Positions 20,452-22,513 of a DNA stretch of 64,000 nt are shown here, piece after piece. The notes under the pieces are model-generated. The model was not told the DNA's origin. It ran no database searches and saw only the letters and a program-made list of their open reading frames with translations. This stretch comes from Rhodothermus marinus (lineage in GTDB: Bacteria > Bacteroidota > Rhodothermia > Rhodothermales > Rhodothermaceae). The position numbers were made by a program, and so were the translations under genes. Every line of letters starts with the position of its first letter. Position 1 is the stretch's first letter. The stretch lies in assembly GCF_009936275.1 (NCBI RefSeq), contig NZ_AP019797.1, positions 487,501 to 551,500 on the forward strand. The letters run 5' to 3'.

Positions 20452-21591
20452 TCACCGTCGCACCTCCACGCGGAAGCGGCCGATCAGCCGCCGGTCCGGC
20501 TCGTCCGACAACCGGATGTAGAGATGAAAAGCTTCGTCCCGTCCCAGCACCGGACCCGGAAGCTCCAACGCCTGCTGCCAGGCGCCCGACAACGAGACCA
20601 GCACTCCATGTGGCTCAATCTTACTGTCATCCCATCCTTTCATTGAGTAATAATCTGACTTTTTGTTAGCAAAAAAAGCTAAAATCAAAGTGTCTGCCAC
20701 AAAAAACACTTCGAAAGTCTGTGATGTCCGCAACATTAAGGATTCCCATTTCTTTCGATCGTTTATGGCCAGATTTGCAGGTATATCTTCATTCGGAGAA
20801 TGCCATTCAGGATGTTGAAAATACACGCTTTTAAGAAACACACCTCCAGTATCTGAGAGCGCATAAATTTGAATCTCTGGAGAAAGACTGTATCCTACAG
20901 CTGCAATTCTACGGTTTGCATTCACATCTATGCGTGGAGCTCTGGTTGCCAGGTTCTTTTCAAAATACAGCGTTGGGTAAAAGCCAAATCGACCTTTTAC
21001 ATGGGTAAAGGAAGTGTCGAGAATAGAAACCGTTCGTGTCTCCTTACAGGGCTTCCCAAGAGGATCACTGCAGGGTTCCCTGATATCTGTTGAAGCTACA
21101 ACAATATGTTGATCATCCAGAACCCTAAGAGGAAACTCTGGATAATAAAATTCAGGCATTCTCTTTTGAGATAAAAATCTTCCTGTTCGATCAAAAACAA
21201 CGATTCTGTTAAATATTTCCTGAACATATACCTTATCATTTAATAATGTTACATACAGAGGCCCCAAGAGAGAGCCCGGTTCTTCAAAGCCGGGATATCC
21301 GAAAGTCTGCACAGGCATTCCGGATTTGTCATATACAACGATACGCCTCAGTCGTCTGTCGGGCACGTATAGTCGAAAAGGATCTAAGGAAACCGCAACT
21401 GATCTGAACTCCCCCAGAAAGAGTGTATCCGGCTCTTTTAGAAATATTGTATCTACAGGTAATAGTGTAGCAGAAAAGACAATTGTCTCTTCTTTTAGCA
21501 GGCAACTACATAAAACAAGGAGGGTTCCGACAAGGGCATAAACCGCACATTGTCGAAACCCTCTATTCGTAATTCCACACTTCACCTTCAC
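20452..21591 (-). CDS. Six-bladed beta-propeller lipoprotein (BF3164-like)
   Basis: 379 residues from a GTG that overlaps the upstream peptide stop by 4 bases. A signal peptide ends in a lipobox-like CSC (VGTLLVLCSCLLKEE). Repeated strand pairs of the NHL/propeller kind follow (FRLYVPDRRLRRIVVYDKSG, VYVQEIFNRIVVFDRTGRF, RIAAVGYSLSPEIQIYALSDTGG). The lipoprotein type matches those found with NVEALA-class peptides in Bacteroidales. Base composition is clearly more AT-rich than the flanking genes, which suggests transfer. It is probably surface or periplasmic and may bind the peptide encoded with it. Confidence 0.7.
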   Translation of the reverse strand: MKVKCGITNRGFRQCAVYALVGTLLVLCSCLLKEETIVFSATLLPVDTIFLKEPDTLFLGEFRSVAVSLDPFRLYVPDRRLRRIVVYDKSGMPVQTFGYPGFEEPGSLLGPLYVTLLNDKVYVQEIFNRIVVFDRTGRFLSQKRMPEFYYPEFPLRVLDDQHIVVASTDIREPCSDPLGKPCKETRTVSILDTSFTHVKGRFGFYPTLYFEKNLATRAPRIDVNANRRIAAVGYSLSPEIQIYALSDTGGVFLKSVYFQHPEWHSPNEDIPANLAINDRKKWESLMLRTSQTFEVFFVADTLILAFFANKKSDYYSMKGWDDSKIEPHGVLVSLSGAWQQALELPGPVLGRDEAFHLYIRLSDEPDRRLIGRFRVEVRR

Positions 21592-21788
21592 TTCGGCTTA
21601 ATGATTATTGGACAGAAGCAATTGACAGGAACGCCACCACAATCATTAGGGACCGTAAAGTCGTTAGAGCAAATGTAATCAGGCGGATCTGCTACAACAT
21701 TATCAGGCCGATACACCCACGGCACCAGGCTCAGACCCAGCGCCAGCACCAGAAACAACGTCGCCAGTCGATCCTTCCAGCCTTTCAT
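21588..21788 (-). CDS. Short secreted Cys-rich peptide, NVEALA-like
   Basis: 66 residues. A hydrophobic leader (WKDRLATLFLVLALGLSLVPW) is followed by DNVVADPPDYICSND, which resembles the NVEALA cleavage region of Bacteroidales peptides, and then a small tail with four Cys (ICSND, NDCGG, NCFC). The stop overlaps the GTG of the lipoprotein gene (GTGA). The start is preceded by AAGGAGGTGAGCG, a strong ribosome binding site. NVEALA-class peptides are putative secreted natural products; their function is not established. The family assignment is by pattern and context and would need a profile search. Confidence 0.6.
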   Translation of the reverse strand: MKGWKDRLATLFLVLALGLSLVPWVYRPDNVVADPPDYICSNDFTVPNDCGGVPVNCFCPIIIKPK

Positions 21789-21833
21789 CGCTCACCTCCT
21801 TTTGTTTTGGTGAAACATACGCCCTCTATCCGA

Positions 21834-22343
21834 TCACCGGTGATCGTCCAACAACAACAGCCGCACCGACGAAGCATCCCCCACCGTGCGCAACACCTCC
21901 GGACCCAGCTCCACCACCACCCGACCCTCCCGCCGCACCAGCGCCCGCGGCAACAACGCCTCCCCGAAATGCCGCCCGTACCACCCCAGCGAATCCCACC
22001 ACACCCCGAACGGAAACCCCATCACCGCCGCATAGCGCCGCGCCAGCTCCCGACTCCGATCCTCCAGAATCCCCACCACCCGAAAACCCAGTGCATGGGC
22101 CCCTTCAACCCAGGCCTGAGCCGTGCGCGCCACGGTCTGGCCGCATTCGTTCGGGCTGAAAAACAGCAGCACCTCGCCCGCTGCGTCCGTCGGCTCGGGG
22201 TTTCCGGCCGGGGTCCAGACCGGCACGAAGGCCTCGGAGGGGAAGGGCACCTCGGGCACGCTTCGATGCAGGCGCCAGGCGTGCAGGCCCCAGCTCGGCG
22301 CCAGAAGCAGCAGGCCCAGGCCGATTTTCTGCACCGCCGACAT
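21834..22343 (-). CDS. Membrane-anchored thioredoxin-fold-like protein
   Basis: 169 residues. An N-terminal hydrophobic anchor (KIGLGLLLLAPSWGLHAWRL) is followed by a likely thioredoxin/AhpC-type core: EVLLFFSPNECGQTVARTAQAW, then GFRVVGILEDRSRELARRYAAVMGFPF and a C-terminal pair RALVRREGRVVVEL. Only one Cys is at the active-site position (NECGQT), so it would not be a CxxC disulfide exchanger. It is the first gene of the cassette with the Cys-rich peptide and propeller lipoprotein, 45 bases upstream of the peptide. A role in redox state of the peptide is a guess from context. Confidence 0.5.
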   Translation of the reverse strand: MSAVQKIGLGLLLLAPSWGLHAWRLHRSVPEVPFPSEAFVPVWTPAGNPEPTDAAGEVLLFFSPNECGQTVARTAQAWVEGAHALGFRVVGILEDRSRELARRYAAVMGFPFGVWWDSLGWYGRHFGEALLPRALVRREGRVVVELGPEVLRTVGDASSVRLLLLDDHR

Positions 22344-22463
22344 GGCCCGAAGTGTCCGGGTTGGTGAAAAGTCCTTGCTTTTGAGAAGCTGCCGTTAAGT
22401 TACACACGCACACACACAATCTGTCAAGAGGAAAAGTGCCTGTAAAATTGTAACTTTTATCTG

Positions 22464-22492
22464 TTTGGGCGAAATTCGTTTGACGGTATAAC
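22464..22492 (+). promoter_or_regulatory. Candidate promoter of the DinB gene
   Basis: TTTGGG (22464-22469) and TATAAC (22487-22492) are separated by 17 bases in the divergent, AT-rich intergenic region. A GGGACAGG ribosome binding site follows just before ATG 22514. Confidence 0.4.
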
Positions 22493-22513
22493 CTGTAAAA
22501 AACGGGACAGGTC

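Follow-up and report, generated by a model that had tools for sequence, protein, structure and literature searches.

A thioredoxin, peptide and propeller-lipoprotein locus at several chromosomal sites in Rhodothermus, with an apparently exchanged core and a predicted phase-variable promoter

A locus of three genes, encoding a predicted thioredoxin-fold protein (TRX), a secreted-type cysteine-rich peptide (PEP) and a predicted beta-propeller lipoprotein (LIP), was found in a 64,000-nucleotide stretch of Rhodothermus marinus DNA (contig NZ_AP019797.1, positions 487,501 to 551,500; hereafter the window) and recurs at other sites in this genome and its relatives. The evidence is good for how the locus is built and for its genetics, its anatomy, the conserved gene order, the division into arms and core, the homogenisation of the arms, the sharing of cores between species and the variation of repeat length between copies all being established by comparison of sequences. 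The best explanation available is that of a multi-site locus for peptide display or antagonism, with a promoter switched by slippage and exchangeable peptide-LIP pairs, a reading to which slightly less than an even chance is given.

The genome containing the window (G000) is closed, with a size of 3.43 Mb, and was compared with six Rhodothermus congeners (seven genomes in total). The locus is chromosomal and is flanked by a GNAT-like ORF on one side and a DinB-like ORF on the other (names read from the translations). It consists of three ORFs on the minus strand, at 22343-21834 (TRX), 21788-21588 (PEP) and 21591-20452 (LIP), of which the last two share 4 nt (GTGA), so that the three minus-strand genes and the 4-base overlap given in a preliminary description of this DNA are present as described.

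TRX is a protein of 169 aa with a predicted thioredoxin fold and membrane anchor (pLDDT 78) and an N-terminal helix at residues 3-26. Its sole cysteine, C67, stands in the motif CGQT and is invariant in all eight homologues aligned, two of which come from another family. The nearest solved structures are those of ResA, DsbE and StoA (Foldseek E 1e-6; a ResA/TlpA/StoA-like fold). The membrane-anchored thioredoxin fold is thus a feature shared with thiol-disulfide proteins of the ResA/TlpA/StoA type. However, the CxxC active site is absent from TRX, and the family is without a resolving cysteine, having CGQT or CYSN/CYSS in place of CxxC. The earlier reading of a single-Cys thioredoxin-like membrane protein is in agreement with the predicted fold, the helix and the lone C67.

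PEP is preceded by a strong Shine-Dalgarno sequence (AGGAGGTGAG, 21791-21800, minus strand) and encodes a 66-aa precursor with a leader and four cysteines, as previously noted, the leader being of the Sec type. The leader is hydrophobic and ends at an A-x-A-like site (VVA33/D34), from which a Cys-rich mature peptide of 33 residues is predicted (residues 34-66, DPPDYICSNDFTVPNDCGGVPVNCFCPIIIKPK; 21591..21689, minus strand) with the motif NCxCxIxIxP. The mature-peptide motif IC...C...NCxCxIxIxP is common to Rhodothermus and Salinibacteraceae; the leader is not.

LIP has a length of 379 aa, a GTG start codon and a lipobox-like LCSC, and its AlphaFold model is a six-bladed beta-propeller (pLDDT 89) of the DUF4221/DUF5128/NHL-like kind, both features being consistent with the beta-propeller lipoprotein first proposed. 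The top structural match was 3s9j, the DUF4221 protein BVU_1028 of Bacteroides vulgatus (Z 23.6, rmsd 3.5 over 326 residues). Pfam and NCBIfam gave no name to the proteins of the window, a ScyF/NHL match falling far under its cut-off. With the DUF5128, TolB_like and DUF4221 profiles the window LIP had no match at E<=1, and three of 16 family members matched DUF5128 (best 1.5e-7). A pair of cysteines in a loop of LIP (residues 172-182, EPCSDPLGKPC, at about 21046-21078) is conserved across the Rhodothermus proteins of type I (LIP I, described below) and missing from two aligned Salinibacteraceae homologues; it may make a disulfide contact with the peptide.

The preliminary description had let its reading of these genes as a cassette depend on their homologues being found together. 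The order TRX-PEP-LIP was found to be kept in five of the seven Rhodothermus genomes, in Salinivenus lutea and at three further Salinibacteraceae loci, one of which is an array form of the unit (genome G353, locus L200) with one TRX followed by PEP-LIP-PEP-LIP in tandem; the cassette reading thus withstood this check. Full-length LIP homologues are present in five of the seven Rhodothermus genomes and in Salinibacteraceae (Salinivenus and others), with 181 of the 195 sampled genomes of the class having no match to LIP. A contig search with the LIP alignment matched Rhodothermus MAGs, two Salinivenus species and a related Bacteroidetes MAG; the same search with a single protein as query matched nothing.

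The peptide had been taken at first for a divergent NVEALA peptide with NVVADP at the position of the family motif. This was not upheld by the profile search then proposed, in which PF14055 (NVEALA) matched neither the window peptide nor homologous peptides (0/60 relatives over the cut-off, with a positive Bacteroides ihuae control), or by profile-profile comparison (hhalign, 0.5% probability). The NVVADP position itself reads EKVVADP, EEVVADP, RPAKADP or QPVEANS in relatives and the N-V/I-E-A-L motif is not conserved. Membership of PEP in the NVEALA family was therefore rejected on Pfam, genome search and profile-profile comparison. The pairing of NVEALA peptides with lipoproteins of this kind, which had also been put forward, was confirmed at true NVEALA loci of the Bacteroidota genome G275, in which NVEALA peptides stand directly before lipoproteins of the DUF5128, TolB_like and DUF4221 families, in a cluster that also holds a TlpA-like protein (by reading), a signal peptidase and DUF1573. 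NVEALA is not mentioned in the literature searched, where a single paper uses any of four names for the partner families.

Both the Rhodothermus unit and these arrays have a small Cys-containing leader peptide directly upstream of a propeller lipoprotein, occur in multiple copies and include a TlpA-like or thioredoxin protein, and the lipoproteins of the arrays are related to LIP by profile and fold. The Rhodothermus unit differs in that its peptide is not recognisably homologous, TRX has a single cysteine and always comes first, the copies lie at dispersed sites rather than in one array, and a TG-repeat promoter is present; at the window locus, moreover, neither DUF1573 nor a signal peptidase of its own was noticed. 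It is improbable that the locus is a divergent NVEALA locus, with a peptide of the same ancestral family whose motif drifted to NVVADP. Such a descent would account for the same arrangement at L147/L148 (a leader peptide directly before a propeller lipoprotein, with a TlpA-like protein nearby), the alignment of the LIP profile with NVEALA-linked lipoproteins (hhalign 94.8%) and the DUF4221 fold match, but not for a peptide that fails both PF14055 and the profile-profile comparison, lacks a conserved NVV motif and has a different Cys pattern in its mature part. The locus is NVEALA-type by arrangement, and its peptide is outside the NVEALA family on the tests run.

The composition of the locus changes abruptly within PEP and again within LIP. 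An AT-rich block (20601..21711) has a G+C content of 41.7% compared with a window mean of 64.4% (SD 4.1) and is the lowest-GC 1.1 kb of the window. It starts past the peptide leader and stops short of the LIP stop codon by about 50 codons, and GC3 falls from 76.9% in the leader to 33.9% over LIP codons 1-330 and rises again to 83.7% in the LIP tail. A second copy of the locus in the window genome (G000:C1:80.8-82.8 kb), which adjoins uvrA and lies 427 kb from the window copy, is 95% identical to it over 743 nt at the 5' end, about 50% identical in the peptide/LIP core and 92% identical over the last 29 LIP codons, and the edges of the AT-rich block fit the edges of this homology. Three parts, all read on the minus strand, can therefore be distinguished by composition and homology, namely a 5' homology arm of promoter, TRX and peptide leader (21712..22459), a payload formed by the AT-rich block with the mature peptide and the LIP body, and a 3' homology arm formed by the LIP tail (20452..20600, 67% GC). 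Simple transfer of two whole genes is ruled out, since the edges of both composition and homology fall inside both genes. The AT-richness earlier ascribed to the last two genes is real, though not in the extent given, and the idea of their transfer as a unit can be kept only for an internal payload between native arms. The pattern suggests that the peptide-LIP core was replaced as a block between matching ends.

Comparison of flanks placed the TRX-PEP-LIP unit at five chromosomal sites in the genus: A (the window), B (uvrA), C, D and F. The core at site A differs among G000, G002, G005 and the G003/G006 pair. LIP bodies with 97% nucleotide identity were found in G003 at site B and G006 at site C (G003_C26 and G006_C177), and again in G003 at site D and G006 at site F (G003_C11 and G006_C171), the orthologous flanks of these two species being 85-90% identical. 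The same cores thus apparently occur in different species at different sites, with the qualification that G003, G005 and G006 are drafts which break at these repeats, so that individual site assignments may be wrong; the two-copy comparison within the closed genome G000 is independent of them. Among LIP pairs with divergent bodies, the nucleotide identity of the tails is 89.6% when both copies come from one genome and 80.7% when they come from two (label permutation, p=5e-5), whereas that of the bodies is 57.1 and 56.8%, respectively. Homogenisation of tails but not of bodies within genomes is the pattern left by gene conversion of arms on either side of a core that is exchanged.

At the orthologous site A of G004, which is otherwise 96-98% identical, the stretch 20601-22497 is missing and a remnant of the LIP tail is followed by approximately 80 nt of unrelated sequence, read as a deletion scar. 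The idea of a separate mobile element, bounded by ends of its own, is unsupported, there being no transposase at the locus, a deletion scar at site A and other genes at site B of G004, and an empty site D in both G000 and G004. At site B of G004 (L133 2600-4791), the place of the peptide locus is taken by a DUF4405 membrane protein and a dGTPase-like HD/phosphohydrolase protein that is AT-rich. At site C of G000 and G004 (L164 2991-3748 and L165 2582-3343), which in other species is occupied by the peptide locus, two genes stand together that look like a toxin-antitoxin pair of the UPF0175/PIN-like kind.

A putative phase-variable promoter was recognised by its pattern upstream of TRX (22396..22427, minus strand), consisting of TTGACA, a 19-nt spacer (GATTGTGTGTGTGCGTGTG) and TAACTTA. 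All 16 intact 5' ends, from five genomes, have TTGACA, a TG-rich spacer and TA[AT][CT]TTA directly upstream of TRX. The spacers of these 16 copies are 11, 13, 15, 19, 21, 25 or 27 nt long, always an odd number, and differ by whole repeat units. A search of the seven whole genomes for TTGACA-(TG)n-TANNTTA returned these 16 places only, with none in the two genomes that have no intact loci, and a reversed control pattern had no match in the seven. In the window, the TG tract is the only dinucleotide run of at least five units. A sigma-70 scan restricted to spacers of 16-18 nt did not list the promoter, as its 19-nt spacer is out of range, and its -10-like box matches the flavobacterial -7 consensus TAnnTTTG in part only (PMC9723704). 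A (TA)n repeat occupies the -35/-10 spacer of the hifA/hifB fimbrial promoter of Haemophilus influenzae (PMC2651432), and the two have in common a dinucleotide repeat between promoter elements which varies in length by whole units. However, the Rhodothermus tract is (TG)n, each of several dispersed copies has its own tract, and switching is here only predicted.

Phase variation and shuffling would be explained just as well by a surface antigen that varies or by a signalling pair. As a surface antigen, LIP with its bound peptide would be an outer-membrane display complex of no toxicity, and multi-site copies, phase-variable promoters and cassette exchange would serve to evade phages or grazers. 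This is considered unlikely, even though a predicted phase-variable promoter at every intact 5' end and gene-conversion arms around a variable core are both hallmarks of antigenic variation, and the body of LIP, a lipoprotein, is large and variable. Antigenic variation alone explains neither the presence of a matched secreted Cys-rich peptide in each core nor the persistence of LIPs that have no peptide, and the surface exposure of LIP is only putative.

The matching of peptide and lipoprotein was seen in two ways. Four-Cys peptides are paired with LIP I and six-Cys peptides with a related LIP II, which has a signal peptide and no evident lipobox, in every case seen. In addition, distances between mature peptides were found to correlate with distances between LIP bodies (Mantel r 0.78, exact p 0.006), on six type I pairs only, two of which have identical mature peptides; for the leaders of the same six pairs the correlation with LIP bodies was not significant (r 0.38, p 0.09). 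This correlation, a hypervariable peptide linked to its partner between conserved ends and the translational coupling of PEP and LIP would also be expected of a peptide pheromone (the mature peptide) with a receptor or sequestering protein (the propeller as cognate binder), comparable to agr/comQXPA-like pherotypes. Such a system is rated as somewhat less likely still than a surface antigen, because the unit contains no kinase, regulator or transporter and the keeping of LIPs without peptides fits a signal pair less readily.

LIPs often stand alone, as tandem second LIPs, at G002_C5, G003_C11 and G006_C171 and at several Salinibacteraceae loci, but no type I peptide was seen that is not immediately followed by a LIP. 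In the second copy of the window genome, the peptide gene is frameshifted (a 42-aa ORF; G000:C1:81474-81658, L060 7475-7660) and the LIP gene is intact. Partner genes kept without effectors, together with peptides that are always followed by a LIP, are a trait of effector-immunity systems. In the T6SS of Vibrio cholerae, effectors have been displaced and immunity genes retained (PMC5361080), and the likeness extends to the replacement of cargo pairs by homologous recombination, with older partner genes kept without effectors (PMC5361080). However, no T6SS is involved here, the effector would be a Sec-exported Cys-rich peptide and the immunity role of LIP is putative.

As to the biological role, it is proposed, with slightly more doubt than attaches to the overall explanation, that the peptide is secreted and disulfide-bonded, that the lipoprotein is its cognate binder or immunity protein, and that the pair is used among close relatives, probably in competition. 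Promoter switching, secretion and disulfide formation, peptide-LIP binding and the role in antagonism or immunity are steps that we infer. The TTGACA-(TG)n-TANNTT promoter would drive TRX-PEP-LIP and is probably switched by slippage in the TG tract. The Sec-type leader would direct export of the peptide, which would fold by means of its cysteines, and the thiols of these are probably handled by the single-Cys TRX. The translationally coupled LIP would bind the mature peptide as its dedicated partner, most likely in the role of immunity protein or binder against a peptide acting on related strains. Homologous recombination between the conserved ends, namely the 5' arm (promoter, TRX, leader) and the 3' arm (LIP tail), would put new peptide-LIP pairs in the place of old ones, the old LIPs often being kept without their peptides, and related strains would probably display different peptide-partner pairs as a result. 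The conservation of NCxCxIxIxP between families is more than a fast-evolving toxin would lead one to expect and counts against the antagonism role.

The NVEALA-like arrangement is here joined to a repeat-controlled promoter, cassette exchange and retained partners, a combination which points to conflict or recognition. It may be, on a judgement falling just short of evenly balanced, that each Rhodothermus strain owes a specificity of its own in recognition or killing to a dispersed phase-variable repertoire of exchangeable secreted-peptide/propeller pairs, and that this repertoire can serve as a model for pairs of peptide and propeller lipoprotein across Bacteroidota which are unstudied, NVEALA included. 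If true, this would be a system of phase variation and cassette switching in a heat-loving, non-pathogenic lineage.

Two of the loci with a LIP but no type I peptide (G002_C5 and G006_C171) have, between TRX and LIP and so in the position that PEP takes elsewhere, an interrupted ORF for a hydrophobic Gly-rich peptide together with a membrane protein that is small and has several helices (L061 10135-11075, minus strand; L078 138-851, plus strand). No Pfam family was named for the Gly-rich peptide; by resemblance, it is bacteriocin-like and the membrane protein immunity-like.
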